IMG/VR virus record: IMGVR_UViG_3300036785_000256
Coordinates: 1-54,231 of that record
Source of the DNA: a virus
Direction: 5' to 3' (one strand)
Length of the DNA: 54,231 bases
Positions within the stretch are counted from its first letter, which is position 1. The number at the start of each line of letters is the position of its first letter. The position numbers and the translations under genes were made by a program. Of the stretch, positions 2 through 54,231 are shown piece after piece. The notes under the pieces are model-generated. The model did not search any database and was not told where the DNA came from. It saw nothing but the letters and a program-made list of their open reading frames with translations.

Positions 2-997
2 GCCAAGCCGGTCCCGGCACCGCTGATGGCGAGCAGCAGCACCCAGATGGCGATGCACGCGATCGCCACCGGCCCTGGCACCGACAAAGAGAAGGCCGAG
101 GCGCTGATGGATAACGCCCAGTTCCAAAGCCAGCTTCAGAAAAGCCCGACCGGCACCACGGCGCAGTATGCCAATCAGTTGCTGGAGACGCTGGGCTACC
201 CGACGATCCCCGGTGTGCCAAAGGCCGAACCTCTGCCGCCTCTGCCGCCACCAAAGCCCGAGGCGATGACGCTCGCGCAGAAAGCCGCAGCAGCGGCACC
301 GCCGACGGCCAAGCACGGCTCGCTGACCGCCAAGCCGCACGTCCAGGTCACCCAGGCGCGCAAGGGACCGCAACTGAGCTTCGCGCTGAAGGCGGAGTCC
401 GAGGCTCGACACCCGTCCAGCACCTCGTCGCCAGAGGCGCTCGAGATCGTGCCGTCAATGAACTCAAGTTTCTGGGCGGAAACGGCGAAGAAGGATCAGG
501 CCGCGTTTTCGTCCTACGGCGGCGGCGGCTATCATATCATCAACGGCGTGCTGCGCGGTCACGACAAGCCGACACCCGAATCGCTGCAAAAGATCGACGC
601 GATGCATGCGATCATGGAAGCGCCAGAGGTTCGCACGACCGGTGACAAGCCGCTGCTGATGGTCAGGGGCGAGGAAATGTCGGATGCCCAGCGCAAGGAT
701 ATCAAGGATTCACTAGAGAAGGGCGTAGGGACGCACCACTACATGCGCACCGGCTTCTCCTCCGGATCGCTTGGAGGCTCTGAGATATCGCCGGGGATCA
801 AAGCCTCACCGGGCTATAAGGCCGGTGCAAACACGTGGTGGGTATTCACCGTGATGCCCGGCGCCAAGGTGCTCGGGCTGGCTGGTAACGTCGGCCATCA
901 CGAGCGCGAGGTCGTGCTGCCACATGGCATCTCGACCGAGATTTATGAAATGTACCATGACGGTCATCGGCACATCATCAAAGCGATCGTGAGGTAA
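2..997 (+). CDS. ADP-ribosyltransferase-like protein, 5' partial
   Basis: The frame is open to the left edge. The first ATG (26) has no Shine-Dalgarno sequence, so the true start probably lies outside the window. Counting from that ATG, residues 60-110 are Pro/Ala-rich and low in complexity. Residues 160-310 carry the signature of R-S-E class ADP-ribosyltransferases: YHIINGVLRG, then Arg214 in LLMVRGEE, F-S-S at 244-246, and E-R-E at 293-295 followed by VVLPHG. Known family members move ADP-ribose from NAD+ to arginine on a protein. In phages such domains are often fused to or sit beside portal and minor head proteins and enter the host with the DNA. Its place before the gpF-like gene fits that. 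The substrate is unknown. It may be the C-terminal part of a longer head protein. Confidence 0.7.
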   Translation, partial: AKPVPAPLMASSSTQMAMHAIATGPGTDKEKAEALMDNAQFQSQLQKSPTGTTAQYANQLLETLGYPTIPGVPKAEPLPPLPPPKPEAMTLAQKAAAAAPPTAKHGSLTAKPHVQVTQARKGPQLSFALKAESEARHPSSTSSPEALEIVPSMNSSFWAETAKKDQAAFSSYGGGGYHIINGVLRGHDKPTPESLQKIDAMHAIMEAPEVRTTGDKPLLMVRGEEMSDAQRKDIKDSLEKGVGTHHYMRTGFSSGSLGGSEISPGIKASPGYKAGANTWWVFTVMPGAKVLGLAGNVGHHEREVVLPHGISTEIYEMYHDGHRHIIKAIVR

Positions 998-1239: not shown

Positions 1240-1348
1240 GCGACGAGGGGCGCTGATGGACTGGTGCTCTATGCGCGTATGGCCCCTCGTCGCGTGGGGC
1301 TGAACCACTCTGGTGGTCGCGCTAACCTTGGCCCCCCGTGATCTTTAC
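1240..1348 (-). ncRNA. double-hairpin element, copy A (30-nt loops)
   Basis: Read on the minus strand: GTAAAGAT (1341-1348), then stem 1 GGGGC (1331-1335) with GCCCC (1296-1300) around a 30-nt loop, then stem 2 GCGACGAGGGGC (1282-1293) perfectly paired with GCCCCTCGTCGC (1240-1251) around a second 30-nt loop. Both loops begin CA and have ACCA at loop positions 17-20. A TTGCGT box (1365-1370) lies 17 nt upstream of TAAAGA and could be a -35. The element fills the gap between two rightward genes and points the other way. Related copies are at 37446, 44126, 47196 and 48860. Whether it acts as RNA or as a DNA site is unknown. Confidence 0.6.
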
Positions 1349-37416: not shown

Positions 37417-37495
37417 CCCCGCCAGATCGCTCTGGCGGGGACTTCGGGGCTGGTTCGTCATGGCTTTCGCTGGAATTTTGGCCCCTAACTTTTAC
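37417..37495 (-). ncRNA. hairpin element, copy B (30-nt loop plus tight hairpin)
   Basis: On the minus strand, GTAAAAGT (37488-37495) overlaps the DUF932 stop codon. Then comes GGGGC (37481-37485) pairing with GCCCC (37446-37450) around exactly 30 nt, a loop starting CA with GCCA at 17-20. A tight 10-bp hairpin CCCCGCCAGA/TCTGGCGGGG (37417-37440) follows. It lies between two leftward genes, filling the 37386-37491 gap. Confidence 0.55.
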
Positions 37496-38601
37496 GCCGC
37501 GATGGCGAGCACCTCGCCCTTCCCTGACGCCGTGGCGATCTCCCGCCACTGGGACTGAGGGAGATCGATGATGGTGCCGCCTAGCCGCTCGAACGCGCTC
37601 GCACGGTCATAGTCGGCGATGTCCTCCGCCGTGCGGGTCACGGCATTGAACAGCCCCATGCGGGTCAGGTCACCGCCCTTGATCAGATTCGCGAGCACCG
37701 AGCCCCGCTCACCATCGTTGAGGGTGAACTTCCGCGCGGCGAATTCCACCACCTTGACCGGATCTGCCTCGATCGGCTGCTCTGCCGTCACCGCGATCCT
37801 GGCAAGCTGCGCCTCAAACTTGGCTTCGTCGAAGGCACCGCGCACCACGTCGCCGACCTGGGCGAAGATGGCGTCGTTGGTCAGTCGGCGGGTCTCGTCC
37901 GACAGAAGGTGCATAATATCGTCACCCATGAGCTTCGTCCCGGTGTGGCGGCGCTTCATGCTCGCCTGGGAGAATACCGCGAGATTGGTGCAGGCACGGG
38001 TCCACACGCCTGTCTCCACAGAAAGCTGACCGAAGCCGACCTCGGAGTTCGACAGCACCAGCGCAGGCACACACGTGTCGAAAATCGTATGCGAGCCGTC
38101 GCCCATCTTGCGGCCGGTGGGGATGTCGCGGTTGATCGAGTGGTCAACGCACTTGATGTAGAGCCGACGCTCGGTCAGTTCGCAGCTAATGATCTCGAGC
38201 TTCAGGTCCATCAGCACCGGCAGCGCCGCTTCGGCGAGGTCGATATTCTCGAGCGGGCGAAAGCTGTCAGAGAGGAACGCGCGGGCGGTGCCGTCCATGG
38301 TGCGGACGAGGCGCTTGGCGTTGGCGGCCTGCATCCACGTGTTGACGTTCATGGCCAGCAGGCCCGGCTGGTCGCTGCGCATCCGGTCGTAATAGGCCGC
38401 CGGGATGCCGGCGAACGCGCCGATCTGGTTGTGGGCGATCTCGTTGACGCTAAAGCCGTCATTGCCGACCCGCAGACGGGGCGCGCGGTCTTCGGCCTGA
38501 TACATGCTGATCGCGTTGGTGGGCGCGACCATGTCGCGTTTGGCGTTAGCCTGCCGCTCGATCTCGGCCGCAAGCTCGGTGAGGGTCTTACCGGTTTTCA
38601 T
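37492..38601 (-). CDS. DUF932 phage/plasmid protein
   Basis: 369 residues from ATG 38601 (ATGA overlap with the small gene upstream). It matches DUF932 (PF06067): FSVNEIAHNQIGAFAGIPAA, Y-Y-D-R-M, RTMDGTARAFLSDSFRPLEN, RLYIKCVDHSI, CVPALVLSNSEVGFGQLSVE, W-T-R-A-C-T-N-L, R-R-H-T-G. Widespread on phages and plasmids with no firm biochemical role. The largest gene of the leftward block. Confidence 0.85.
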   Translation of the reverse strand: MKTGKTLTELAAEIERQANAKRDMVAPTNAISMYQAEDRAPRLRVGNDGFSVNEIAHNQIGAFAGIPAAYYDRMRSDQPGLLAMNVNTWMQAANAKRLVRTMDGTARAFLSDSFRPLENIDLAEAALPVLMDLKLEIISCELTERRLYIKCVDHSINRDIPTGRKMGDGSHTIFDTCVPALVLSNSEVGFGQLSVETGVWTRACTNLAVFSQASMKRRHTGTKLMGDDIMHLLSDETRRLTNDAIFAQVGDVVRGAFDEAKFEAQLARIAVTAEQPIEADPVKVVEFAARKFTLNDGERGSVLANLIKGGDLTRMGLFNAVTRTAEDIADYDRASAFERLGGTIIDLPQSQWREIATASGKGEVLAIAA

Positions 38602-38750
38602 GTGTGTGTTTCCTTGGGTGCGGGTTGTGTGGTCTGCTTCGTGTTGATCCAGCCCATCTTCCAGCAATGCGGCTTGGCGAGGTTAAATGCCTCGCCTTTC
38701 TTGTAGGCTGCCGCGCCCTGCCGGTAATCGATGTAATCCTGCTTGGTCAT
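38598..38750 (-). CDS. short protein upstream of DUF932
   Basis: 50 residues from ATG 38750: TKQDYIDYRQGAAAYKKGEA, FNLAKPHCWKMGWINTKQ, ending ATGA-coupled to DUF932. The predicted start of transcription from P3 is only about 3 nt upstream of the ATG, so the message has almost no leader. The composition is plausible and there is no competing frame. Function unknown. Confidence 0.6.
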   Translation of the reverse strand: MTKQDYIDYRQGAAAYKKGEAFNLAKPHCWKMGWINTKQTTQPAPKETHT

Positions 38751-38759
38751 CACCCGACC

Positions 38760-38788
38760 TACATAGGACAACGTGTCCTGTCCGTCAA
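38760..38788 (-). promoter_or_regulatory. promoter P3 with operator in spacer
   Basis: -35 TTGACG (38783-38788), 17-bp spacer, -10 TATGTA (38760-38765). The operator ATAGGACA-ACG-TGTCCTGT lies at 38763-38781 (7 of 8 arm positions). The -35 overlaps the end of the HicA-like gene. It drives the 50-residue gene and DUF932. Confidence 0.72.
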
Positions 38789-38994
38789 GATGTTTTTCTC
38801 CCCTTGCCGGCTTTAATCGAGCGGCGCATTGTGGCTCGCACGTTCTTCATCACGCGGTGTTCGTCGGAAGGCGTGGCGCCGGAATATACCGGATAGGCGG
38901 CATCAGGGTGGCGGAACACCACGTGCCCGCCGGGTCCGACCGCGCCGGTCCAGCCATCTTTACTCAACTCGCGGATCATCTTGTTGGTGGACAT
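38785..38994 (-). CDS. HicA-like small protein (orphan)
   Basis: 69 residues, AAGGAG 8 nt upstream. It resembles the HicA/YcfA double-stranded RNA-binding-like fold: N-K-M-I-R-E-L-S-K-D-G-W, then G-P-G-G-H-V-V-F-R-H-P with candidate catalytic His24, and a basic C-terminus (VRATMRRSIKAGKGRK). Known HicA toxins are mRNA interferases paired with HicB. No HicB-like gene is adjacent, so it may be a domesticated RNA-binding protein. Confidence 0.55.
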   Translation of the reverse strand: MSTNKMIRELSKDGWTGAVGPGGHVVFRHPDAAYPVYSGATPSDEHRVMKNVRATMRRSIKAGKGRKTS

Positions 38995-39358
38995 CCTCGG
39001 TCTCCTTGGAGATCAGCCGGTAGCCGGCGCGGTATGACGCGCGCGCGAAGGCGAGGGTGCAGTCCGGATTGCAGAACGGTTTCGAGGCGGTCCAGTAGGT
39101 CTCGCCGTCCCATTCGCTGAACCGCCAGACGTGCCGATCCGGGCGGTTGGTGTAGCCAACCGATACCACCTGCTGATTGCTGTGGCGGCGACAGTCGGCG
39201 ATCGAGCGCAGCGGCGCCTCGGGCGCCACCTCGCGGCTGTAAGTGCTGTGCTCGAGTTGGCGATGCCTGCGGTCGAGCCACCCTCGGTCGATCACCCACA
39301 CGGTGCGGGTGAGCTTCGCCAGCGGCTTGCCGCAGGTCGGGCAGCACGGGCGGGTCAT
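38960..39358 (-). CDS. zinc-ribbon protein
   Basis: 132 residues from ATG 39358 (ATGA overlap). N-terminal R-P-C-C-P-T-C-G-K-P-L metal site, a middle with RTVWVIDRGWLDRRHRQLEH and SVGYTNRPDRHVWRFSEWDG, and C-terminal FCNPDCTLAFARASYRAGYR with a second Cys pair. Probably binds zinc. Not recognised beyond that. Overlaps the HicA-like gene by 35 nt. Confidence 0.65.
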   Translation of the reverse strand: MTRPCCPTCGKPLAKLTRTVWVIDRGWLDRRHRQLEHSTYSREVAPEAPLRSIADCRRHSNQQVVSVGYTNRPDRHVWRFSEWDGETYWTASKPFCNPDCTLAFARASYRAGYRLISKETEDVHQQDDPRVE

Positions 39359-39810
39359 CGCCCGTCCCTCCGGTAGTCGGCGATGATCGCCTCGGCCTCG
39401 TCCTCGGTGCAGAGCGGCCCAGGCCCCGAGGTGGCGGTGCGCGCATCCGGCCACAGCGTCGGCTCCGGCTGGTCGTCCGCCCACCGCGCCGGGCGCCGGA
39501 TCAGCCCTTTGCCCCAGCGCATCATCGTGCCCCAGACCTCGAGGTACGCGTCGTGGCGATCGTCCTCGGTGACGCTGTCCTTGAAGTTGGTGTAGTCGAT
39601 CCGGTCGACCTCGTCGGCCAGCGCGGCCTTCACCCGCTTGGTCAGCACGATGGCGCGGAAGGCATAGTCCCTGCCGGGCGTGGGGTGCGCCCTGGCGCCG
39701 GGGAACACTTTCTCGATGTCACCGTCGCGACGGGCGCGCACCAGCCGCACACGGGGCCTCCCGGGCACCGCGACGATCGACAGAAAACTGTCGTTCAGCA
39801 TGATCCACAT
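39355..39810 (-). CDS. hypothetical protein with MW-NDSFLSIV start
   Basis: 151 residues from ATG 39810, AAGGAC 8 nt upstream; an in-frame ATG at 39831 is less well placed. Features: NDSFLSIVAVPGRPRVRLVR, ARRDGDIEKVFPGARAHPTP, DRIDYTNFKDSVTEDDRHDA, Y-L-E-V-W-G-T-M-M. The first 100 residues look like a conserved compact domain found in other phage accessory blocks. Function unknown. Confidence 0.7.
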   Translation of the reverse strand: MWIMLNDSFLSIVAVPGRPRVRLVRARRDGDIEKVFPGARAHPTPGRDYAFRAIVLTKRVKAALADEVDRIDYTNFKDSVTEDDRHDAYLEVWGTMMRWGKGLIRRPARWADDQPEPTLWPDARTATSGPGPLCTEDEAEAIIADYRRDGR

Positions 39811-39812
39811 GG

Positions 39813-39989
39813 CTAGCGTCCTTGCATCCATTCGTCGTTGATTCGGTCGAGCACGTCATTCAGTGGTGGGGTGTACCAGTGCGAGGCGTTGGCTAGCATT
39901 TCGACCGACAACGCCAGCACCCCAGGGCTATCCTTCCCGGCGCGGACGCGCTGGGCGAGGATCAGCAGCATGTTTTCAAGGCAGTGCAT
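39813..39989 (-). CDS. short helical protein
   Basis: 58 residues, AAAGGA 6 nt upstream, start coupled to the previous stop (TGATG). Sequence segments: C-L-E-N-M-L-L-I-L-A-Q-R-V, SPGVLALSVEMLANASHWYT, DVLDRINDEWMQGR. Helical and soluble. The frame fits exactly between its neighbours. Function unknown. Confidence 0.6.
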   Translation of the reverse strand: MHCLENMLLILAQRVRAGKDSPGVLALSVEMLANASHWYTPPLNDVLDRINDEWMQGR

Positions 39990-40318
39990 CAGAGTCCTTT
40001 CGTTGGTATCTCGCGGCGCAACAGGCGCAGCACCTTGTCGCGCTGCTTGCGCAGCGCCTGCCGCTCGGCCAGGGTCACCGCAGCTTTCGGATCAGCGACC
40101 AGACGCCGGCAATACCTGAGCACCGCGTTGCCGAGTTCCGCTTCGGCCCACGCACGCAGATCCCGAGCGGGCGGCGCGGGGCTGGCGGGGCTGGTGGGGC
40201 TGGGACGGGTGCGGGCAACGACTGCGGACAGCATCCGGCAGTCGTCACAGATCCGACTGGGTCGTCCGGCTTGCTGGCCGCACCGCTCGCACACGCCGGA
40301 CGTGTGCAGGTCCCACAT
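39989..40318 (-). CDS. small zinc-ribbon protein
   Basis: 109 residues. N-terminal Cys4 ribbon C-E-R-C-G-Q-Q ... S-R-I-C-D-D-C, a Pro/Ser-rich linker, then helices (DLRAWAEAELGNAVLRYCRR, ERQALRKQRDKVLRLLRREI). Likely a nucleic-acid or protein adaptor. Starts coupled to the gene upstream (TGATG). Confidence 0.65.
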   Translation of the reverse strand: MWDLHTSGVCERCGQQAGRPSRICDDCRMLSAVVARTRPSPTSPASPAPPARDLRAWAEAELGNAVLRYCRRLVADPKAAVTLAERQALRKQRDKVLRLLRREIPTKGL

Positions 40319-40467
40319 CAGCGCGGCTCCTCGGTGTCTTCTGGTTCAGGGTCGTCTATGTGCTCCCACCGCTCGTCGCGGCAGTTGGGACAGGCATAGA
40401 AGGCGTAGCGCCCGTCCTCATGGCACTCGGGTTGCGCCGACAGCCCGCTCCCGCAGGTGCAGCGCAT
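40318..40467 (-). CDS. tiny zinc-ribbon protein
   Basis: 49 residues: M-R-C-T-C-G-S-G-L ... P-E-C-H-E-D-G-R-Y-A-F-Y-A-C-P-N-C-R-D-E-R-W-E, with an acidic tail. Three Cys groups form a plausible zinc site. It fits between its neighbours with TGATG coupling at the end. Function unknown. Confidence 0.6.
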   Translation of the reverse strand: MRCTCGSGLSAQPECHEDGRYAFYACPNCRDERWEHIDDPEPEDTEEPR

Positions 40468-40470
40468 CGG

Positions 40471-40662
40471 TCAGCGCTCCTGCACGAGGTAGAAGAACCG
40501 CACCGGCTTGTTGGGGTGGTTCCTCTCGCGGGTGAGACGGAGCGCCTCGCTGGTGGCTTCGTCTCGATCGGTCCAGAGCGCGATGGTGCCGTCACGCTTC
40601 AGCCAAGCCTCGCGAGGGCCGGTGCGGCCCCCGCTCACTTCACACCAGATCCCGTAGATCAT
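40471..40662 (-). CDS. small hypothetical protein
   Basis: 63 residues from ATG 40662, coupled to the DUF6011-like stop (TGATG). Beta-strand-like: I-Y-G-I-W-C-E-V-S-G-G, REAWLKRDGTIALWTDRDEA, NKPVRFFYLVQER. It resembles short phage proteins that display an annotation-like strand-helix-strand fold. Function unknown. Confidence 0.6.
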   Translation of the reverse strand: MIYGIWCEVSGGRTGPREAWLKRDGTIALWTDRDEATSEALRLTRERNHPNKPVRFFYLVQER

Positions 40663-41309
40663 CACACCACCTCGCAGGCCAGGGCCTTGGTGGCCTTGGC
40701 GCCCCAGGGCAGGCCCCAGTTCGCGGCGCAGTCCGGGCCGTAGCCGACCGCCTTGCTGTCCGGATGCGTCAGCGTCTTGGCGCAGAAGCAGCACTGGCCG
40801 GTGGTCAGGCCGTAGGCAGCGGCGACGCCGACCGGATCGGCGGCGAAGGCGACCAGGGTCTTGGTGATTATCGCCACCTTCTCGGTGGTCAGCCGCTTGC
40901 CGCCGGGCTGGTACACGCCGTTGACGGTGATGCGGCCGAACCACTCGTTGCGGCCGTCGGCCTGCTTCACGGTGCCGGTCACGTTGATGGAGCCGGGCAC
41001 CTTGGCCTGCGCGCCAGCAACCGAGATCCGCAGCTTCTCGCCCGTCTCGGTGGCGAGCAGCAGCGCCGGGAACTTGCCCTTGGCGCTGGTGACCAGGGCG
41101 ACGATCGGGGCGATGTCGCCCACGATCACGTTGGCCGGGATGGCCTCGGTGCCGGTGGCGCGGGCGGCGAGCTTGCCGACCCAATACATCTGCTTCTCGG
41201 ACAGGCTGCCCTTGTTGGCGAACTGCGCGACCAAGGAAGCAGCGAACGACTGGTCCTTGGCGGGGAGTTTAGCGAGGTTGTCGGCGAGGGTGGCGATCTG
41301 GGCTTGCAT
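40662..41309 (-). CDS. DUF6011-like zinc domain protein
   Basis: 215 residues from ATG 41309, AGGAGA 8 nt upstream. The N-terminal part is helical (QIATLADNLAKLPAKDQSFA, LSEKQMYWVGKLAARATGTE), the middle a beta domain (LRISVAGAQAKVPGSINVTG, EWFGRITVNGVYQPGG), and the C-terminus Q-C-C-F-C-A-K-T-L-T-H-P-D-S-K-A-V-G-Y-G-P-D-C-A matches DUF6011. The layout suggests a single-strand or nucleic-acid binding protein. It is the first gene after P4. Confidence 0.7.
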   Translation of the reverse strand: MQAQIATLADNLAKLPAKDQSFAASLVAQFANKGSLSEKQMYWVGKLAARATGTEAIPANVIVGDIAPIVALVTSAKGKFPALLLATETGEKLRISVAGAQAKVPGSINVTGTVKQADGRNEWFGRITVNGVYQPGGKRLTTEKVAIITKTLVAFAADPVGVAAAYGLTTGQCCFCAKTLTHPDSKAVGYGPDCAANWGLPWGAKATKALACEVV

Positions 41310-41340
41310 TGCGGTGTCTCCTGGTTTCTCTCTGCGCTCA

Positions 41341-41369
41341 GATATAGGACAAGATGTCCCACTAGGCAA
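41341..41369 (-). promoter_or_regulatory. promoter P4 with operator in spacer
   Basis: -35 TTGCCT (41364-41369), 17-bp spacer, -10 TATATC (41341-41346). The operator ATAGGACA-AGA-TGTCCCAC is at 41344-41362; the core GGACA-N3-TGTCC is perfect while the outer positions differ. It drives the gene at 41309 and probably the run of coupled small genes after it. Confidence 0.7.
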
Positions 41370-41389
41370 GAGAAATCGTAAAGACGCCG

Positions 41390-41596
41390 CTAGTTAAATT
41401 CGGGCCAGTTCAGCACGTGCGGATGGTTCTGGATCAGCCGGATCAGCAGCCCAGCGAACGGCGGCACCTCGGCACCCGGCCGCTCCCATCGGCGCCATGT
41501 TCGCATGTCGACGCCCAGCAGCTTGCCGGCATCGGCCTGGGTCAGTTCGCGTTCGAGGCGGAACGCCTTGATCTGCGCTGGTGTCATCGGTCGCAT
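41390..41596 (-). CDS. Xre-type regulator, probably leaderless
   Basis: 68 residues from ATG 41596, or 65 from ATG 41587. Helix-turn-helix: TPAQIKAFRLERELTQADAG, K-L-L-G-V-D-M-R-T-W-R-R-W-E, then a short C-terminal part. The -10 of its promoter ends 7 nt before the ATG and there is no Shine-Dalgarno, so translation is probably leaderless, as with lambda cI from PRM. It has the operator in its own promoter, which makes it the best candidate regulator for P1-P5. Confidence 0.75.
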   Translation of the reverse strand: MRPMTPAQIKAFRLERELTQADAGKLLGVDMRTWRRWERPGAEVPPFAGLLIRLIQNHPHVLNWPEFN

Positions 41597-41603
41597 GGTG
41601 GCA

Positions 41604-41632
41604 CATATGGGACATCGTGTCCCGTATGTCTA
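41604..41632 (-). promoter_or_regulatory. promoter P5 with operator in spacer (regulator gene)
   Basis: -35 TAGACA (41627-41632), 17-bp spacer, -10 CATATG (41604-41609). The operator is the longest copy: ATATGGGACA-TCG-TGTCCCGTAT at 41605-41627, 9 of 10 arm positions paired. The -35 overlaps the stop codon of the upstream gene. Transcription should start within a base or two of the ATG at 41596. Confidence 0.7.
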
Positions 41633-42004
41633 GTGGCCGGACCGATATGGGTTGCGGCAGCCCTGGCACATCCAGTTGTTCCGCCGGTCGACGCACTGGA
41701 ACGGCCGGCGGCAACACAGGCACAGCCGCTCGAACGCGGCTGGCCGGTCGGCCGGCTCGAGCTTCGGCACGGTCTGCGGCTTCGGCGCTGGCGGCGGGCG
41801 TGGTGGTGCCGGGTTCAGCAGATGCCGGGAGCGCGCCTCGCAGCCACCGGGGGTCCGGCCGGGCACCAGCTTGCTGATCGCGAGCCAATCGGGTGTGCGG
41901 GCGGCGATGCGATACGGCGCCATGGCATCAAACAGCGCGGCATCCTCGGTGGGCGTCCATGGTCCGGTCGGCCGGCGCAGCACCTTGAGCGTCTGAACCT
42001 TCAC
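41630..42004 (-). CDS. Myb/SANT-like protein with zinc ribbon
   Basis: 124 residues from GTG 42004 (GTGA overlap). N-terminal helix-turn-helix-like G-P-W-T-P-T-E-D-A-A-L-F-D-A-M ... WLAISKLVPGRTPGGCEARS, a Pro-rich linker, and a C-terminal zinc ribbon C-L-C-C-R-R-P-F-Q ... M-C-Q-G-C-R. The first part resembles Myb/GcrA-type DNA-binding modules. Probably a transcription regulator. Confidence 0.65.
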   Translation of the reverse strand: MKVQTLKVLRRPTGPWTPTEDAALFDAMAPYRIAARTPDWLAISKLVPGRTPGGCEARSRHLLNPAPPRPPPAPKPQTVPKLEPADRPAAFERLCLCCRRPFQCVDRRNNWMCQGCRNPYRSGH

Positions 42005-42285
42005 GGTTCGTCGAACGTCGGGCCACCATGCTCGACCTCGTACGGCTCCTCCTCGTCCCGCTCGCCCAGGGGAAGCTCGGCTTCCGGAGGTGCGGCGGCC
42101 TTGGTGCGCGGCTTCCGCCGTCCACTGGTCACGATCTCATAATCAGCGTCGATCTTGCCGTTGTAGCCGGCCAGCGAGGCGAGATAGCGGTTCCAGCCGC
42201 CAAGCAGATCGGTGACCGCTTTGGTCTGTTCCGTGGGATCGTCCGGCAGCGGCGCGGTCAGTGAAGAACGGAAAACCTTCGGCAA
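42001..42285 (-). CDS. small acidic hypothetical protein, TTG start
   Basis: 94 residues from TTG 42285, with GGGAG a few bases upstream. N-terminal helix (QTKAVTDLLGGWNRYLASLA), a basic patch (GRRKPRTKAAAP) and an acidic end (GERDEEEPYEVEHGGPTFDE). First gene of the leftward block, divergent from the Cro-like gene. Function unknown. Confidence 0.55.
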   Translation of the reverse strand: MPKVFRSSLTAPLPDDPTEQTKAVTDLLGGWNRYLASLAGYNGKIDADYEIVTSGRRKPRTKAAAPPEAELPLGERDEEEPYEVEHGGPTFDEP

Positions 42286-42402
42286 CTCCGACTCCCTTCG
42301 TTAAGGCGCTGGGCCGGCTTGCGGTCATCCGCCGGTCCTCGGGGAGGGCTTTTGCAAACCCAAGACCCAAGGGGTAAGGCGATCGAGCGACGGCCGACCC
42401 AG

Positions 42403-42492
42403 CGCGCACAACTTGCGCTAACTCACTGTGCGCGTCAACGGCTATCTTTACGAAAACGCTTGCGCCCGGCGGAAACTTGGAATAAGTTAGCG
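42403..42492. promoter_or_regulatory. divergent control region with two nested dyads
   Basis: Between the leftward gene at 42285 and the rightward Cro-like gene at 42495. CGCGCACA (42403-42410) pairs with TGTGCGCG (42427-42434); CGCTAACT (42416-42423) pairs with AGTTAGCG (42485-42492), the latter arm lying just before the Cro-like ATG. GTAAAGAT occurs on the minus strand (42444-42451) without the GGGGC hairpin. The remainder of 42286-42494 shows no gene. Confidence 0.5.
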
Positions 42493-42494
42493 GC

Positions 42495-42695
42495 ATGATC
42501 AATCTGAAACAACGCGCTTTGTGGGTTCGCGTCTATCGCAACCGGAAGCAGAAAGACATGGCGGTGGCGCTCAACGTCACGGAGCCGGAGGTGTCGGTAT
42601 GGATACATCGGAAACGCCCGGTGCCGCGCCGCTATGTGAAGGCATTCGCCGAGCTTCTCGAAATTCCCCAGAAGGAACTGCCGCCGCCATGCTGA
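42495..42695 (+). CDS. Cro-like helix-turn-helix protein
   Basis: 66 residues from ATG 42495. Helix-turn-helix: L-W-V-R-V-Y-R-N-R-K-Q-K-D-M-A-V-A-L, N-V-T-E-P-E-V-S-V-W-I-H-R-K-R, then YVKAFAELLEIPQKELPPPC. First gene of the rightward early operon, facing the leftward block, as cro does in lambdoid phages. It may bind the dyads just upstream. The stop overlaps the next gene. Confidence 0.7.
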   Translation: MINLKQRALWVRVYRNRKQKDMAVALNVTEPEVSVWIHRKRPVPRRYVKAFAELLEIPQKELPPPC

Positions 42696-43012
42696 CGCAG
42701 ATACCCCCGGCGGACGAACTGGCGGACGTGCGCGCCCGGATCAAGATGCTCGAGGAGCGCGAGGTCGAACTGCGCAATCTGCTGATCGGCGACCCGTCCG
42801 CGCGCACCGGCAACCACTACCTCGTCGAGGTGCGCGAGGTCGAGACCAAGCGGACCGATCTGAAGGAGCTTCGTGCGATGTATCCGGATCTGGTCGAGGA
42901 ATACACTTATCCCGTCAAGACCACGCGCGTCGATCTGAAGGGCATCACCGAGGACGGTGAGATCGTGTCGCTGCGATCCAAGGCGACCAAGGTTGAAGGG
43001 ACACCACAATGA
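42689..43012 (+). CDS. coiled-coil protein next to ERF
   Basis: 107 residues from ATG 42689. Helical N-terminus (ELADVRARIKMLEEREVELR) then ARTGNHYLVEVREVETKRTD and LVEEYTYPVKTTRVDLKGIT. Proteins like this often precede recombination genes in phages. A helper in recombination is likely from context only. It overlaps the ERF gene by ATGA. Confidence 0.65.
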   Translation: MLTQIPPADELADVRARIKMLEEREVELRNLLIGDPSARTGNHYLVEVREVETKRTDLKELRAMYPDLVEEYTYPVKTTRVDLKGITEDGEIVSLRSKATKVEGTPQ

Positions 43013-44118
43013 GCACCACCAACAACGGCAGCGGCGGCCCGATCGTGCCGTCCGATAAAGCCTTTATGAATTTCATCGAGCGCGCGGCGCTTGATCCGAA
43101 CTTCGACGCCGAAAAGTTCAAGATGCTCGTGGACCTGCAAGAGCGGGTAGAGGACCGACAGGACAAGCGCGAGTTCAACGACGCGATGAACCGGGCGCAG
43201 GCGGAGATCGCGCCGATCCTGAAGGACGCGACGAACAGCTTCCTCCAGGCGCGCTACGCCACGCTCGCGGCGATCGACGCCGTCGCACGGCCGATCTACA
43301 CCGCCCATGGCTTCTCCATGCGCTTCAACTCGGGCGTGCCGTCTGCGCCCGGGCTGATCCGGCTCGTGTGCACCGTCGCGCACAGCAGCGGGCATTCCGA
43401 GGATTACTGGCTGGAAATCCCGCCCGACAGCGCGGGCAGCAGCGGCACCAAGAACAAGACCGGGATTCAGGCGGTCGGATCGTCGGTGACCTATCTGCGG
43501 CGCTACCTGACCTGCCAGATCTGGAATATTCAAACCGGCGATGACGATGACGGCGAGGGCTCGCGCGATCGGCCGCCACCACGCACCGGAACGGCCGGCA
43601 AGGGCACCACCACCCAGACCAAACGCGGCCCCGATCCGCTGGACGAGCAGAATGGCACGCTCTGGCTGAAGAACCTCATGGCCGGGCTGGCGCAGGCGCA
43701 GACCGTCGCGGGGATCGACCTGATGCGCAACCACTGGAGCGTCGCGACGGCACTGGAGAAGGCGCCGACGCTGATCCGGAGCCAGATCGAGTCCGCCTTC
43801 GAGGCGGCTTACAAACGGCTCAAAGGCAACGGCGCGGCCTCCACCACCCCAGCCACGGGCGGACCGTCACTGCCGGACGATCGGGCGTATCAGGGCGTGG
43901 CCGGTGCCGACGTCGAGGGCGGCGAGACCGACGAATTCACCGAGTATGACGCGATGCTCAACGAGGTTGAGGGGTTCGACCTGATCACGCTGGGCACCCT
44001 GCCCACCAACGCGGCGTGGCGTGGCCGGCTGCGGGCGCTGCTGCCGGATCAGATCGACTCGATCAACGACGCGATCGCCCGCCGCACCGGCACGCTGCGC
44101 GCGCGCCAGCAGGGCTGA
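43009..44118 (+). CDS. ERF family single-strand annealing protein
   Basis: 369 residues. The ERF (PF04404) core spans about 20-185: REFNDAMNRAQAEIAPILKD, ARYATLAAIDAVARPIYTAH, G-F-S-M-R-F, CTVAHSSGHSEDYWLEIP, a K-T-G-I-Q-A-V-G-S-S-V-T-Y-L-R-R-Y segment and GDDDDGEGSRD. Known ERF proteins form rings that anneal complementary strands in phage recombination. The C-terminal 180 residues are linker plus a helical tail. An element copy starts 8 nt past its stop. Confidence 0.88.
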   Translation: MSTTNNGSGGPIVPSDKAFMNFIERAALDPNFDAEKFKMLVDLQERVEDRQDKREFNDAMNRAQAEIAPILKDATNSFLQARYATLAAIDAVARPIYTAHGFSMRFNSGVPSAPGLIRLVCTVAHSSGHSEDYWLEIPPDSAGSSGTKNKTGIQAVGSSVTYLRRYLTCQIWNIQTGDDDDGEGSRDRPPPRTGTAGKGTTTQTKRGPDPLDEQNGTLWLKNLMAGLAQAQTVAGIDLMRNHWSVATALEKAPTLIRSQIESAFEAAYKRLKGNGAASTTPATGGPSLPDDRAYQGVAGADVEGGETDEFTEYDAMLNEVEGFDLITLGTLPTNAAWRGRLRALLPDQIDSINDAIARRTGTLRARQQG

Positions 44119-44125
44119 ACCAGAT

Positions 44126-44229
44126 CGGGGCCAGTGCATGGTCGAACACCACAGAAGCATAGCCCCGTAGGGGCGGCCGAAGGCCATAGGGATGCCGATC
44201 GCCACAGAGCGAGTGCCAGACGCCGCCCC
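44126..44229 (+). ncRNA. hairpin element, copy C
   Basis: CGGGGC (44126-44131) pairs with GCCCCG (44162-44167) around exactly 30 nt; the loop begins CA and has ACCA at positions 17-20. A second stem GGGGCGGC/GCCGCCCC (44170-44177, 44222-44229) encloses 44 nt, so this copy departs from the double 30-nt plan. It fills most of the 44119-44250 gap after the ERF gene. GTAAAGAT is reduced to AGAT (44122-44125). Confidence 0.5.
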
Positions 44230-44250
44230 ACCCTTTTCACCGAGGACACC

Positions 44251-44784
44251 ATGGACGCTAAATTCCAGATCGCCTTCCAGATCGATCGCGACTTCGCCGA
44301 GACCTGCATCAAGCGGGCCGGCGAACTGGCGCCGATGTTCGTGGTGCACAGCCGCGACGGCTCCATCGTGCCGATGATCGTGGCCGGCTTCGGCGATAAT
44401 CGTGACGGCGCCTACCAGATGGCCACCGTGGCCTGCATTGCTTACGACGCCGTCGCGGTCAGCATGATCGCCGAATCCTGGATGGCGCGCGAGGACAAAC
44501 ACGACCCCTCCGGCCTGTCACCCGGGCAGCGCGAGAATAAGCGCGAGGTGGTCGCGGTCAGCTTCGCCGCGCGTGACACCAAGTTGATGTCGATCCGCGA
44601 GATCCTGCGCGCCGCCGATGGCACCATCAGCGGCCTGGGCGACGAACTGGTCACCGCAGCCGCCCACACCGAGGGGCGGCTCTACAGCGTGCTGCCGACG
44701 ATACGCCCGACCAAGGCGCAGATCCGCACCGCCCGCGCCATGCTCGATGCGTGCGGCGAACGTGTCGCGATGGGGCGCGTCTGA
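44251..44784 (+). CDS. hypothetical protein after ERF
   Basis: 177 residues from ATG 44251. Alpha/beta: KFQIAFQIDRDFAETCIKRA, GSIVPMIVAGFGDNRDGAYQ, AVSMIAESWMAREDKHDPSG, EVVAVSFAARDTKLMSIREI. No membrane segment. Not recognised. TGATG coupling with the next gene suggests joint function in the early operon. Confidence 0.65.
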   Translation: MDAKFQIAFQIDRDFAETCIKRAGELAPMFVVHSRDGSIVPMIVAGFGDNRDGAYQMATVACIAYDAVAVSMIAESWMAREDKHDPSGLSPGQRENKREVVAVSFAARDTKLMSIREILRAADGTISGLGDELVTAAAHTEGRLYSVLPTIRPTKAQIRTARAMLDACGERVAMGRV

Positions 44785-45767
44785 TGCCGTCCCAACTCCA
44801 CATGCGCCTGGAAGACTTGGTGGCGCTCGACGATGACGCCAGCGAGGCGATGCTGCGCACCATGGCCGACTGGCCGAAGCCCACGGTGCAGCAGGTACGC
44901 CACGCCATCCTGGACAGCCGGATGATCGTGCCGTCGGAGCAGGGTGACGAGCACCGGCCGTTTTTCACCTCGCTGCCCGAGGCGTTCGAGCGGGCGGTGA
45001 AGGAAGGCAAGCTGTTCGACCTTGGCCACCTTCCGAATGCGGTAATCAAGAGCGAGGCGAAGCGTGGCGGCGAACTGCTGGCCGCCGGCCATATCGGCCA
45101 CCCCTACCAGTCGCCCTACTGCCTGTACCATACCTGGGAAGGTGGCGGTTCGCTGTATCTGGTCGACGCGTCGGACTGGCACGCGATGTCGAAGGGCCGG
45201 ATGAAGCCCAACACCTTCCTGGTGTGTGAGGCGCAGGGCCTGACGGTGGCCGGCCAGGGCCAGTTGCTGCTGGGCGATTCCGCGATGATCGAGATCAGCC
45301 CCGACTACGCCGGCTGGAGCGGCAAGCTGGTCAAGTCAGCCGCGCACCGCGCGCTCGAGGTCAGCGGCCTGCCTAAACCCACGGAGCGGGAATCGATCTG
45401 CAACCTCGTCGACCCGGTGGCGGCGATGCTGCTGCTGCTCGCCACCGACGGTGTCGCGGTGGACAAGATCGAGATGCCATTCAAGCTCAACCGCACACGG
45501 GCGAAGAACGGCAAGCCACACATTCCGCCGTACTGGGCGGTGCGCGCCGAGCACTACGTGACGGCACTGGGCCAGCGCGGCAAGCCTGGGCTTGCCCTGG
45601 GTGGCCACCACGCCTCGCCACGGCCGCATCTGCGCCGGGGCCACATCCGCCACCTCCAGAGCGGCAGCACCGTGTGGATCAAAGATGCTTTGGTGATGCT
45701 CAAAGAGGGCCAGGAGATCGACGCCGATCTGGGCCGCAACTTTTATCAGCAAAGGGACCGCAAATGA
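44784..45767 (+). CDS. large hypothetical early protein with RGHIRHL motif
   Basis: 327 residues from ATG 44784. Central VIKSEAKRGGELLAAGHIGH and PYQSPYCLYHTWEGGGSLYL, helical SICNLVDPVAAMLLLLATDG, and a C-terminal H-H-A-S-P-R-P-H-L-R-R-G-H-I-R-H-L ... T-V-W-I-K-D-A-L-V. The basic RGHxRxL...VW motif recurs in unclassified phage early proteins. Likely nucleic-acid related; function unknown. Confidence 0.65.
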   Translation: MPSQLHMRLEDLVALDDDASEAMLRTMADWPKPTVQQVRHAILDSRMIVPSEQGDEHRPFFTSLPEAFERAVKEGKLFDLGHLPNAVIKSEAKRGGELLAAGHIGHPYQSPYCLYHTWEGGGSLYLVDASDWHAMSKGRMKPNTFLVCEAQGLTVAGQGQLLLGDSAMIEISPDYAGWSGKLVKSAAHRALEVSGLPKPTERESICNLVDPVAAMLLLLATDGVAVDKIEMPFKLNRTRAKNGKPHIPPYWAVRAEHYVTALGQRGKPGLALGGHHASPRPHLRRGHIRHLQSGSTVWIKDALVMLKEGQEIDADLGRNFYQQRDRK

Positions 45768-45997
45768 CTGACGAGCCCACCGGCTGGCACGACAGCGTGC
45801 GCAACGACGGCACCAGGATCGAGGCGGCCGGCATCGGCCAGTACATGGTGATCGGACCCAAGGCGGCCTGGACGCTGCGTGCATGTCCCTGTTGCGACAA
45901 ACCGTTCGCCACCCCGCGCAACGCCATGCTGGTCGCCGACGCGGTGTTCCCGCTGCAACCGCCGGGCGTCGACGCTGGCCGGGTGTTCCCGGCATGA
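45764..45997 (+). CDS. small protein with Cys-rich motif
   Basis: 77 residues, ATGA overlap. Beta N-terminus (G-T-R-I-E-A-A-G-I-G-Q-Y-M-V) and R-A-C-P-C-C-D-K-P-F-A-T-P-R-N-A metal-binding-like motif. Not recognised; one of several small Cys-rich proteins here. Confidence 0.6.
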   Translation: MTDEPTGWHDSVRNDGTRIEAAGIGQYMVIGPKAAWTLRACPCCDKPFATPRNAMLVADAVFPLQPPGVDAGRVFPA

Positions 45998-46086
45998 CCT
46001 GGGTGATCGTGGTGGTGGTGTGGACTCTGGTAGCGCTCGGGCTGGCGTTGCTGGCCGGCGCGTTTATCCGGTGGGGCGCGCAATGA
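45994..46086 (+). CDS. 30-residue single-TM protein 1
   Basis: ATG 45994 overlaps the previous stop (ATGA). T-W-V-I-V-V-V-V-W-T-L-V-A-L-G-L-A-L-L-A forms one transmembrane helix, followed by G-A-F-I-R-W-G-A-Q. First of three tiny membrane proteins in a row. Its end W-x-x-V-x-x-GLA...FI[R/K]WG is shared with the third. Confidence 0.55.
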   Translation: MTWVIVVVVWTLVALGLALLAGAFIRWGAQ

Positions 46087-46175
46087 CCTACTGGTCGATC
46101 TACGGCACGCTGGCCGCCGTGTGGATCGGTATGGCGGCGGCGCTGATCACTATCATCATCCGTTCGGAGGACTGA
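46083..46175 (+). CDS. 30-residue single-TM protein 2
   Basis: ATG 46083, ATGA overlap. T-Y-W-S-I-Y-G-T-L-A-A-V-W-I-G-M-A-A-A-L, then ITIIIRSED. One transmembrane helix with a charged C-terminus. No family known to me. Confidence 0.55.
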   Translation: MTYWSIYGTLAAVWIGMAAALITIIIRSED

Positions 46176-46177
46176 GC

Positions 46178-46261
46178 ATGTGGTTTTTCATGGTTCTCCT
46201 GATCGCCTGGATCGGCGTGTTGGTCGGGCTGGCCAAATTCATCAAATGGGGAGAGGGGTAA
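46178..46261 (+). CDS. 27-residue single-TM protein 3
   Basis: ATG 46178, two bases after the previous stop, GGAGGAC upstream. W-F-F-M-V-L-L-I-A-W-I-G-V-L-V-G-L-A, then K-F-I-K-W-G-E-G. It resembles protein 1 in the order W, V, GLA, FI[R/K]WG, so the two probably arose by duplication. Confidence 0.55.
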   Translation: MWFFMVLLIAWIGVLVGLAKFIKWGEG

Positions 46262-46264
46262 GTA

Positions 46265-46702
46265 ATGAACGTGCATGTGCAATTCGCCTTGGCGCATCCG
46301 GTGTTCGACCCGGAGACCCAGATCCTCACCGGGCATTACTGGAAGGCCATGCGGGATGTGTCCGCATGTTTGACTTGCAACATCGGAATGGAATGACACC
46401 GCTACGCGGCCGGTCGCCCGCTCTGGCACCTCTCCCTTGCGGTGCACGATATGGAGCGCAAACGACCGGTTCCGGTGCTCAGTTTGAGCCCATCGCGGAT
46501 GCGGAGACTGGAAGCCTTGCGCGATCAGGTCATGTTCCACACCGGCACCGACGAGCCGTGGGTCACCGATCCGGCGGAAGAGGTGGAGGCCGAGACCGGC
46601 CGCCCGCTGGTGGCGATGCACTGGCGCAAGCCATTGAGCATCGAGGAGATCACGCAGATGGCGCCGACGCCTGAGGTGCGCGAGCGGAAGGGACGACCGT
46701 GA
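46265..46702 (+). pseudogene. early gene interrupted by an in-frame TGA
   Basis: ATG 46265 gives 43 residues (VHVQFALAHPVFDPETQILT, ACLTCNIGME) to TGA 46394-46396. The same frame stays open beyond it without break (HRYAAGRPLWHLSLAVHD) into ERKRPVPVLSLSPSRMRRLE, LVAMHWRKPLSIEEITQMAP, to the stop at 46700-46702. The joined protein would have about 145 residues and reads naturally across the stop. CGA to TGA is one transition. As it stands, a 43-residue peptide and a part from ATG 46451 could be made. Confidence 0.6.
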
Positions 46703-46890
46703 CCAGGGCCGAACTTATTGCCGATCTACAAGCGGCCGTCAGAGCCCTGGAACCGCCGTTTCTGGAGCCGCCGTTCCTGGCGCTGCCGGAGCATGGTTTT
46801 ACAACGGAGAACTTAGCTTATCGTCGCGGCGCCAGAGACGCCTACACCAAGGTCTTGGTGGTGCTCATGGAACCGGAAGGGACGCCATGA
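46699..46890 (+). CDS. small hypothetical protein
   Basis: 63 residues from GTG 46699 (GTGA overlap). R-A-E-L-I-A-D-L-Q-A-A-V-R-A-L-E-P, a duplicated P-P-F-L-E/A-L-P unit, and NLAYRRGARDAYTKVLVVLM. Small helical protein of a type common in phage early operons. Function unknown. Confidence 0.6.
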   Translation: MTRAELIADLQAAVRALEPPFLEPPFLALPEHGFTTENLAYRRGARDAYTKVLVVLMEPEGTP

Positions 46891-47186
46891 CGGACGGCGT
46901 GTATCGCGAGCGCAGTTGGATGTGCACCCATTGCGGCCACGTGCTGGACGCGTGCGGCACCGACAGCGTCGGCAAACCGCGTCCGCCACGCGACGGCGAT
47001 ATGTCGCTGTGCGTCAACTGCGCCTCGCCTTACACCCGACATGGCGATCACTGGGAGGCAACCACGGCGGAGGAATGGGCGAAGCTGTCGAAGCGGCAGC
47101 AGCGCGCGGTGGCCGAGACGGCGGTGGCGTGCCTGATCGCACGTCAGGTGTTCCCGTCGAAGCCACAAACAAGTGGACGCGCTTAG
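46887..47186 (+). CDS. zinc-ribbon early protein
   Basis: 99 residues, ATGA overlap. W-M-C-T-H-C-G-H-V-L-D-A-C and L-C-V-N-C-A-S-P form a four-Cys zinc ribbon; the rest is helical (TTAEEWAKLSKRQQRAVAET, VACLIARQVFP). Possibly an adaptor to RNA polymerase or replication proteins. It is followed by element copy D. Confidence 0.65.
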   Translation: MTDGVYRERSWMCTHCGHVLDACGTDSVGKPRPPRDGDMSLCVNCASPYTRHGDHWEATTAEEWAKLSKRQQRAVAETAVACLIARQVFPSKPQTSGRA

Positions 47187-47195
47187 TTTGTCGCT

Positions 47196-47311
47196 GTAAA
47201 GATGACGCGGGGCCATGGAGCAGCCGCTCACCAAGAGAAGATCGCCCCGCACTACGCGACCGAGGGGCCAGAGGTACTCCGAATACCAGCGGGCTACAGC
47301 CCCTCGGTCGC
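47196..47311 (+). ncRNA. double-hairpin element, copy D (30-nt loops)
   Basis: GTAAAGAT (47196-47203), stem 1 GCGGGGC/GCCCCGC (47207-47213, 47244-47250) with a 30-nt loop, stem 2 GCGACCGAGGGGC/GCCCCTCGGTCGC (47256-47268, 47299-47311), 13 perfect bp, with a second 30-nt loop. Both loops begin CA and have ACCA at 17-20. It fills most of the gap between the zinc-ribbon and helicase genes and is the best-formed copy. Confidence 0.65.
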
Positions 47312-47344
47312 ACCCATGAACACTGACCCAACGGACGGGCAACT

Positions 47345-48847
47345 GTGTATACCTTACGCGATTACCAAGCCGAACTGATCGAGGAAGTGCGCGGCGCCTA
47401 CAAGCGTGTCCGTCGCGTGTTGATGGTGCTGCCGACGGGCGGCGGTAAGACCGTCATATTCGCATACATAACGGAAGGCGCCGCGCAGAAGGGCAACCGA
47501 ATCTGCATCGTCGCGCATCGTGAAGAGATCGTCGACCAGATCAGCGCCGCCTTGGACGAGATGGGTGTGAGACACGGTCGGATTCAGGCGGGCCACACCA
47601 TGACGGACGATCCGGTGCAGGTGGCAATGATCCAGACATTGGCACGGCGGCATAACCGGTTCCAACCGCCGGATCTCATTGTCATTGACGAGTGCCACCA
47701 CGCCGTCGCCAACAGCTATGCGAACGTCACCGCCCTATGCCGGGAGGCACGTATCCTGGGCGTCACGGCGACGCCCGAACGGCTCGACGGCAAGGGGCTG
47801 TGGCCGCAGTTCGATGAACTGGTCATTGGCGCCACACCGGGCGAACTCATGGCCGCCGGGTTCCTCGCCGGCTACGAATATCTGGCACCACCATCACGGG
47901 TGAATCTCGCCGGGATCAGGACGATTGCCGGCGACTTCGATCAGGCGGCCCTGGCCGAAGCAGTCGACCGGGTGATCATCACGGGCGATGCGGTGGAGCA
48001 CTACCGCCGCCACCTCCACCCGCGCACCGCGCTCGTGTTCGCGATTCGCGTCGACCATGCCGAGCACATCGCCGCGCAGTTCCGCGAGGCCGGGTTCCGG
48101 GCCGCCTCGGTTGACGGCGGGATGGACAAGGCGGAGCGGAAGCGGCGGGTTCGTGGAATCGGGAACGGCGAGTTGGACGTGCTGGTGTCGTGCATGCTGC
48201 TGGGCGAGGGGCTCGACGTGCCCAGCGTCGGCGGGGTGATCCTGCTGCGGCCGACCCAGTCGCTGGCGATGCACTTGCAACAGATCGGTCGCGCACTGCG
48301 GCCGAAGGTGGATGGGGCGAAGGCGATCATTCTCGATCACGTCGGGAACGTGCGCCGGCACGGCTTGCCGGACGCCGCGCGCGACTGGTCGCTTGCGGAC
48401 CGGAAACGGAACGGGCCGGCGGACGTGCTGGTGTGTAGCGAGTGTGACCGCGTGTTCTCGCGGGAGTCCTCGACGTGGCGGAAGGACGCGATCGAGGCAG
48501 GCGCCCAGGAAGCCTGCCAGGACCTCGCTGGTGGCGCTCTGCCGGAGCGGTGTGTCCTCGCCCAGCGGGTGCCCGAGCCGGCCGCCTGGGTGCCTCCGGA
48601 GGCCGCGCAGGGCCGGCTGATCCAGTACGTCACGAGCGATGGCAACGGCGCGATCGATATGCGGCCGGAGTGGGCCGGCGGCTTCCATTTGGTGGACAGC
48701 AAAGGCTGGGCGTACTTCCGGCTGCTGGAGCGTGCGGACACACGGGAGAAACTCGAAGCGATCAGCAACGCGCGCGGCTACAAGCGCGGCTGGGTGGGAC
48801 ACATCATCGCGGAACGGGAGGCGAAGCAGGCGAAGCTTGAAGTATAG
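47345..48847 (+). CDS. SF2 DEAD/DEAH-type helicase
   Basis: 500 residues from GTG 47345. Motifs: Q-like LRDYQAELIEEV, I P-T-G-G-G-K-T (30-36), II D-E-C-H (115-118), III GVTATPERLDG, then the second RecA domain with ALVFAIRVDHAEHIA, LVSCMLLGEGLDVPSVGGVI and VI Q-Q-I-G-R-A-L-R-P. The C-terminus has a two-Cys segment (CSECDRVF) and a basic tail. The architecture is that of RadD/type III restriction-like phage helicases. Probably acts in replication or recombination. Confidence 0.88.
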   Translation: MYTLRDYQAELIEEVRGAYKRVRRVLMVLPTGGGKTVIFAYITEGAAQKGNRICIVAHREEIVDQISAALDEMGVRHGRIQAGHTMTDDPVQVAMIQTLARRHNRFQPPDLIVIDECHHAVANSYANVTALCREARILGVTATPERLDGKGLWPQFDELVIGATPGELMAAGFLAGYEYLAPPSRVNLAGIRTIAGDFDQAALAEAVDRVIITGDAVEHYRRHLHPRTALVFAIRVDHAEHIAAQFREAGFRAASVDGGMDKAERKRRVRGIGNGELDVLVSCMLLGEGLDVPSVGGVILLRPTQSLAMHLQQIGRALRPKVDGAKAIILDHVGNVRRHGLPDAARDWSLADRKRNGPADVLVCSECDRVFSRESSTWRKDAIEAGAQEACQDLAGGALPERCVLAQRVPEPAAWVPPEAAQGRLIQYVTSDGNGAIDMRPEWAGGFHLVDSKGWAYFRLLERADTREKLEAISNARGYKRGWVGHIIAEREAKQAKLEV

Positions 48848-48859
48848 CACGCGCGTGGC

Positions 48860-48969
48860 GTAAAGATGCGGCGGGCCAGTTCTCCAGTGATCACCATGCG
48901 AGGGTTGCCCATCGGCCGACAGGGGCCATTCCGCTGTTGAATACCACCGCGTCAACGCCCCTGTCGGCC
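48860..48969 (+). ncRNA. double-hairpin element, copy E (30-nt loops)
   Basis: GTAAAGAT (48860-48867), stem 1 GGGC/GCCC (48873-48876, 48907-48910) with a 30-nt loop, stem 2 GGCCGACAGGGGC/GCCCCTGTCGGCC (48914-48926, 48957-48969), 13 perfect bp, with a 30-nt loop. Both loops begin CA and have ACCA at 17-20. Stem 2 differs from copies A and D in sequence yet stays fully paired, which means compensatory change. Confidence 0.65.
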
Positions 48970-51804: not shown

Positions 51805-51857
51805 TCCTAGCTCACAGGTTCGTGACAATCGCTGGGAGTTTCCTGTAAAGATCACCG

Positions 51858-54046: not shown

Positions 54047-54231
54047 ATGGTTATTCACGACTACACGGTCCACCACATCCCGTTGGACCGGATCGACAAG
54101 AATCCGCTCAACCCGCAAAGCCGGGGCGAAGCGGGTGACGTGAAGGGCCTGCTTGAGTCGATTACCGAGAACGGCCTCTACTACCCCATCCTGCTGAACA
54201 AGAAGCCGGATGGCCGCTACATGATCATCGA
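54047..54231 (+). CDS. ParB-like N-terminal domain protein, 3' partial
   Basis: 61 codons to the right edge. The ATG has AAGGAGGT 6 nt upstream. Pattern of ParB/Srx-like domains: H-H-I-P-L-D-R-I-D-K-N-P-L-N-P-Q-S-R, GEAGDVKGLLESITENGLYY, P-I-L-L-N-K-K-P-D-G-R-Y-M-I-I, where the G-L-x-x-P-I/V and Y-x-I-I-D stretches are typical. Could be a partition protein or a regulator; the DNA-binding part is beyond the window. Confidence 0.75.
   Translation, partial: MVIHDYTVHHIPLDRIDKNPLNPQSRGEAGDVKGLLESITENGLYYPILLNKKPDGRYMII

Follow-up and report, generated by a model that had tools for sequence, protein, structure and literature searches.

What are the eight hairpins that lie scattered between the genes of a virus, all of them with a loop of the same length? 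The question is raised by the IMG/VR virus record IMGVR_UViG_3300036785_000256, which we analysed over its full length of 54,231 nt (the window). A first-pass annotation, made from the sequence alone, had reported these hairpins at five intergenic sites, held that no described family follows their plan, and offered a put-like antitermination RNA, a protein-binding RNA or a DNA site as explanations. We conclude that the hairpins are real and that their parts belong to a known kind, the stem–loop TIGR guide RNA (tigRNA) of TIGR-Tas systems, and we put the probability of this reading at about 0.9. The claim that no such family has been described was therefore wrong, as Faure et al. (2025, Science, PMC12045711) present the stem–loop TIGR guide, whose plan the hairpins follow; the idea of a structured, protein-bound RNA with conserved pairing was right.

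All eight hairpins are present at the positions given for them, with loops of exactly 30 nt and perfect stems of 4–13 bp. As had been noted, loop positions 1–2 read CA in every hairpin; seven hairpins have ACCA at positions 17–20 and the other one has GCCA, and a single hairpin shows GGGC in place of GGGGC. The second stems at the doubled sites (1240, 47256, and 48914) are 12, 13, and 13 bp long and have different sequences. We counted six copies of the strict pattern GGGGCCA-N14-ACCA-N10-GCCCC in the window, whereas 100 dinucleotide shuffles contained 0.01 copies on average and never more than one. A relaxed pattern finds eight hairpins at loop length 30 versus 0–3 at each other length between 22 and 40, and 20 third-order Markov simulations gave 0–3 such hairpins. 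Upon RNA folding the longer units reach z values of −5.1 to −6.5 relative to shuffled sequences; for the short-stem units the folding energy alone is not outstanding.

The nature of the element became apparent from its copies in other viruses. Scanning viral contigs with the pattern yielded 26 stretches, several of them with whole hairpin arrays, and further copies with compensated stems are present in many phages. The two refutation tests proposed in the first-pass annotation, shuffled controls and a search for further compensated copies, thus both favour a real motif. When 92 distinct loops are pooled, C1 A2, Y12 G13, C18 C19 A20, and Y30 are conserved together with the closing pair C0–G31, and the remaining loop positions are near-random. 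The loop is a direct repeat with a period of 18 nt, C/CA-N9-YG-N4-CCA-N9-Y/G (slashes mark the loop ends); this period and the YG at loop positions 12–13 had been overlooked in the first-pass annotation. Each loop thus holds two modules of box C and box D, each enclosing a freely variable block of 9 nt, and sits on a perfectly paired stem of variable sequence. A layout in which a fixed loop leaves two 9-nt blocks free is that of a dual-spacer guide and not that of a folded aptamer. The spacers are 9 nt long in all eight units of the window, and stem–loop TIGR arrays have dual spacers of 8–12 nt, each set between a CCA box C and a UG box D, and variable palindromic stems, the tigRNAs being used by Nop-domain Tas proteins which read both DNA strands (Faure et al. 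2025). A CRISPR array was rejected, as the arms vary between units and a constant repeat is absent. Searched at the gathering score, Rfam (release 15) has no match in the window and reported only tRNAs in the array loci.

The array loci also have one protein in common, a co-occurring family such as had been suggested as a check, and this protein is identified as Tas. A profile (alignment A1) built from eleven neighbour proteins of array loci finds TasR (chain 9mty, E 9.5e-28), TasH (3.3e-15), and IS621 (2.4e-5) in the PDB, and all eleven proteins match the NCBIfam entry NF052498 (TIGR_Tas_endo). The family is labelled "transposase" in PHROGs, and Pfam has no match whatever for the Tas set. An IS110 bridge RNA was considered and rejected: there is no DEDD transposase among the annotated genes of the window, and the neighbour proteins elsewhere fit Tas far better. 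In a structure model of one of the proteins (L017, pLDDT 83), whose closest folds are TasR and TasH, a long helical part comes first and there is no nuclease domain, which makes this Tas TasA-like.

Searching viral contigs with the A1 profile gave 52 loci picked by Tas alone, a few of which duplicate the first set. In 46 of the 63 Tas loci, 230 units with the 9-4-9 geometry are found, compared with a median of zero over 251 other spacings; the next-best spacing, with 36 units, has the same total length as 9-4-9 and probably counts these loops again, a second YG being present by chance. As many as 220 of the 230 units lie inside the tas open reading frame or within 1 kb of it. If only the boxes are searched and the stem is ignored, at least four further base pairs are present in 134 of 198 matches near tas versus 7 of 32 elsewhere. 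In addition, 227 of the 230 units are on the tas strand and three on the opposite one. This strand preference speaks against the suggestion that the hairpins are double-stranded DNA sites, for example, an operator, a parS or a packaging site, with inverted arms three helical turns apart. Such a site would agree with the fixed spacing, the occurrence of both orientations, and the ParB-like gene at the end of the record; however, the arms vary between sites and yet stay perfectly complementary, which duplex DNA does not need and which this suggestion leaves unexplained. We regard it as very improbable.

Many guides even lie within tas itself. There are 110 distinct units within the tas open frame, 84 before the conserved core, 16 in it, and 10 between the core and the stop codon (for example, L010:4552-4595, L049:7456-7505, L054:7357-7475, L058:7422-7536, and L106:1907-1946). 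Their codon phase is 0 or 2 and never 1, although the openness of single units predicts 23% for phase 1 (P ∼3e-13, assuming independent units, though the loci are related). Phases 0 and 2 are mixed in 22 of 38 loci; phase 1 would turn box D and a following A into UGA. Thus, the coding sequence of a Tas protein also contains guides that this protein uses. The main text of PMC12045711 does not contain the term "open reading frame", and "coding sequence" appears there only in the description of a construct.

The position of the units also bears on a put- or nut-like antitermination signal or another cis-acting leader RNA, a reading favoured by the three sites at which two hairpins closely follow a promoter-like element. 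A leader should serve the genes behind it, but the site 1240–1348 is antisense to both flanking genes. Moreover, each loop has two freely variable 9-nt blocks, and units of this kind are also found within tas coding sequence and as arrays with as many as 11 members. Hence we give the antitermination proposal hardly any credit.

Among cultured phages, Fromanvirus mycobacteriophages (L042:3150-3470, L098-L105; alignment A2) carry Tas together with about five guide hairpins. Between these phages the array is 74–80% identical, versus 95.6–99.5% for both flanking genes; the changes concentrate in the spacers, and stems and boxes are largely kept. Their Tas genes bear the label transposase, DNA-binding or hypothetical protein. 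In Mycobacterium phage Rubeus the annotated protein gp71 (L101:433-723) overlies the guide array and is probably a spurious gene call. Units are shared in varied combinations: unit 1 of Rubeus equals that of BigPaolini, and unit 5 of Burton equals that of BigPaolini (L105, L101; A2 columns 20-70 for unit 1). This mixed sharing suggests an exchange of single units. With the same system in cultured phages, and with spacers that differ between close relatives, target searches and genetics are feasible in laboratory strains.

Within the window, the units are arranged in another way. Three doublets and two singles, some on one strand and some on the other, occupy five intergenic places that span 47 kb. 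However, scattered units far from tas are also found in a phage that carries Tas, and we therefore regard the window as a dispersed variant of a TIGR system. In this 122-kb contig (G052, the contig of L020) a single tas lies at 83217-83990, and units with stems of 4–15 bp are located on both strands at 4.8, 54.5, 55.5, 76–86, 95.6, 100.1, and 111.5 kb, that is, as clusters near tas besides far-off units. Outlier units likewise occur in two further contigs (G053 and G054). The same contig shows 28 strict guide matches (G052:4772-111537), several of which overlap, with one arm serving two adjacent loops; the overlapping units alternate in orientation with a period of ∼37–38 nt. The dispersed arrangement is a variant which is not described in the main text of Faure et al. 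(PMC12045711), where tigRNAs, clustered in regular arrays, are set against dispersed small nucleolar RNAs (snoRNAs). Dispersed guide genes narrow this contrast as drawn there. Taken together, we think it reasonably probable that snoRNA-like dispersed guide genes serve one Tas in trans in some phages, that guides lie inside the tas coding sequence in many phages, and that guides change much faster than stems and flanking genes. In practice, the text rule CCA-N9-YG-N4-CCA-N9-YG in a hairpin locates guides without first finding Tas.

As to the expression of the scattered units, GTAAAGAT (three sites) or GTAAAAGT (one site) is located 2–5 nt upstream at four of the five sites, in line with the first-pass annotation. 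GTAAAGAT has seven copies in the window versus ∼0.24 expected, and is thus an element of the whole phage and not specific to the hairpins. The copies away from hairpins are at 51845-51852 (+), 42444-42451 (−), 38956-38963 (−), and 14015-14022 (−). One copy of GTAAAGAT is found 5 nt before a likely start codon, and at two sites TTG-like −35 boxes lie 17–18 nt upstream of the element; the arrangement upstream of unit 1a is TTGCGT-N17-TAAAGAT. Judged from the sequence, GTAAAGAT may be the −10 element of a promoter.

Several observations weigh against assigning the window to TIGR-Tas. Box D reads AG instead of YG in the second module of four of the eight window units and in the first module of one, and a long array is absent from the window. 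Searches of the 54-kb record with PF01798, alignment A1, NF052498, and hhalign did not detect Tas, although they did detect their positive controls; a divergent Tas among the window open reading frames was rejected, as the best hhalign probability is 4.8% versus 98.7–100% for controls. Furthermore, the window guides have no match beyond chance in their own genome and in relatives, 209 guides searched against 1.1 Mb of loci gave no target excess over the control, and ∼30 mycobacteriophage guides gave 46 hits with up to three mismatches in 13 phage genomes versus 33–67 with shuffled letters.

The missing Tas could mean that the phage has none of its own, and that its dispersed tigRNA units load the Tas of a host, a prophage or a co-infecting phage, redirecting or decoying it. 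That Tas is likewise not detected in 39 of the 40 relatives that share the capsid family, several being records of 60–110 kb, would fit such orphan guides. On the other hand, no convincing hairpins were seen in those of the Tas-less relatives that were tested, and hairpins and Tas thus go together; four records have pattern hits whose stems are unchecked. The remaining capsid-family relative (G029) does carry Tas, and units that follow this plan surround it. Moreover, the record is truncated at both ends, and the negative result for Tas thus covers the 54-kb record only: the record opens with the last 331 codons of a gene which encodes 1800 amino acids in the relative G001, and the final gene is cut within its ParB_N domain. 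Orphan guides therefore appear unlikely to us, although less so than the two alternatives discussed above. The end of the very large protein at 26-997 (+) has a weak Pfam match to ADP-ribosyltransferase (E 0.003, below the cut-off).

A TIGR-Tas system that is complete in this phage is likely. By synteny with G001, ∼8–9 kb would be missing from the record. TasA genes sometimes share operons with ParB-like genes (Faure et al. 2025), and tas may therefore lie just past the cut ParB-like gene; that the ParB-like gene belongs to the system is speculative, a lead and not a proof. The truncated ParB as query found one distant ParB, unlinked to Tas, and the ERF recombinase as query for relatives found none. 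The phage probably infects alphaproteobacteria, its capsid relatives pointing to hosts such as Bosea and Methylobacterium.

How might the guides work? A unit would be transcribed either from a promoter that ends in GTAAAGAT or as one part of a longer RNA, and the transcript would fold via its variable perfect stem. In a dimer of the Nop-domain Tas, each protomer would then grip one of the two identical box modules (CCA ... YG), and the dimer would present both 9-nt spacers. The DNA target would be 18 bp long, 5′-A-(0-2 nt)-rc(B)-3′, with spacer A pairing to one strand and spacer B to the other; we derived this rule from the 8-nt 3′ overhang that has been published and from the statement "cut 5′ of the base pairing with the fifth spacer base". 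A nuclease-less TasA-type protein might block or bend the target instead of cutting it. As no spacer pair matches the phage or its relatives, foreign DNA is the likely target, for example, competing mobile elements. For related systems, transcription, processing, and two-strand targeting are described by Faure et al. (PMC12045711); for the present phage we infer that the Tas gene is in the unsequenced part, that GTAAAGAT has a promoter role, and that foreign DNA is blocked. The best target candidate, unit 1 of Rubeus against TM4 12210, agrees at 16 of 18 positions, which is not significant, and was rejected. Two 18-mers compared with all phage records gave no match, BLAST sensitivity being marginal at 18 nt. 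Faure et al. name natural targets and spacer origin as open, the loci being mostly metagenomic. The features of the window are collected in Table 1.

Table 1. Putative guide units, upstream elements, and the terminal gene in the window
Feature	Position	Strand	Description	Spacer A	Spacer B
tigRNA-like unit 1b	1240..1293	-	12-bp stem, 30-nt loop; RNA fold z -5.2; box D AG, one deviation	TACGCGCAT	GTCCATCAG
tigRNA-like unit 1a	1296..1335	-	5-bp stem	AGGTTAGCG	GAGTGGTTC
GTAAAGAT element	1341..1348	-	5 nt upstream of unit 1a		
tigRNA-like unit 2	37446..37485	-	single; 5-bp stem	AAATTCCAG	TGACGAACC
GTAAAAGT element	37488..37495	-	2 nt upstream of unit 2		
tigRNA-like unit 3	44126..44167	+	single, without GTAAAGAT; 6-bp stem; RNA fold z -3.0	GTGCATGGT	CAGAAGCAT
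GTAAAGAT element	47196..47203	+	3 nt upstream of unit 4a		
tigRNA-like unit 4a	47207..47250	+	7-bp stem	TGGAGCAGC	AGAGAAGAT
tigRNA-like unit 4b	47256..47311	+	13-bp stem; RNA fold z -5.1	GAGGTACTC	GCGGGCTAC
GTAAAGAT element	48860..48867	+	5 nt upstream of unit 5a		
tigRNA-like unit 5a	48873..48910	+	4-bp stem	GTTCTCCAG	TGCGAGGGT
tigRNA-like unit 5b	48914..48969	+	13-bp stem; RNA fold z -6.5	TTCCGCTGT	CCGCGTCAA
ParB_N-domain gene	54047..54231	+	cut by record end; Pfam PF02195, 27.5 bits (cut-off 26.3)		

Compared with known systems, the window is closest to the stem–loop TIGR arrays as described by Faure et al. (PMC12045711), for example, the 13-unit TasA locus from Peromyscus gut. Both have two 9-nt spacers, CCA and YG boxes, and variable palindromic stems, both are phage-borne, and related loci encode a nuclease-less TasA-type protein. 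In contrast to those arrays, the window units are singles and doublets scattered over 47 kb on both strands and form no array beside tas, a gene not found in the sequenced part; their linker is fixed at 4 nt, and all sites but one of the five have GTAAAGAT or GTAAAAGT upstream. The dual-repeat TIGR arrays of TasR and TasH likewise have box C/box D modules, 9-nt spacers, and a protein of the Nop family; however, they possess constant edge and loop repeats, which the window units do not have, being closed by variable long stems instead. The bridge RNA of IS110 elements is similar in its Nop-like RNA-binding protein family and in split guides placed in hairpin loops, but the window has many separate units and no IS110 transposase with a DEDD domain. 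Finally, box C/D snoRNAs and archaeal small RNAs have a two-guide architecture which is read by a Nop-domain dimer, and their genes are dispersed as in the window, whereas the window units have neither a K-turn nor canonical C/D boxes nor fibrillarin, and their proposed targets are DNA.

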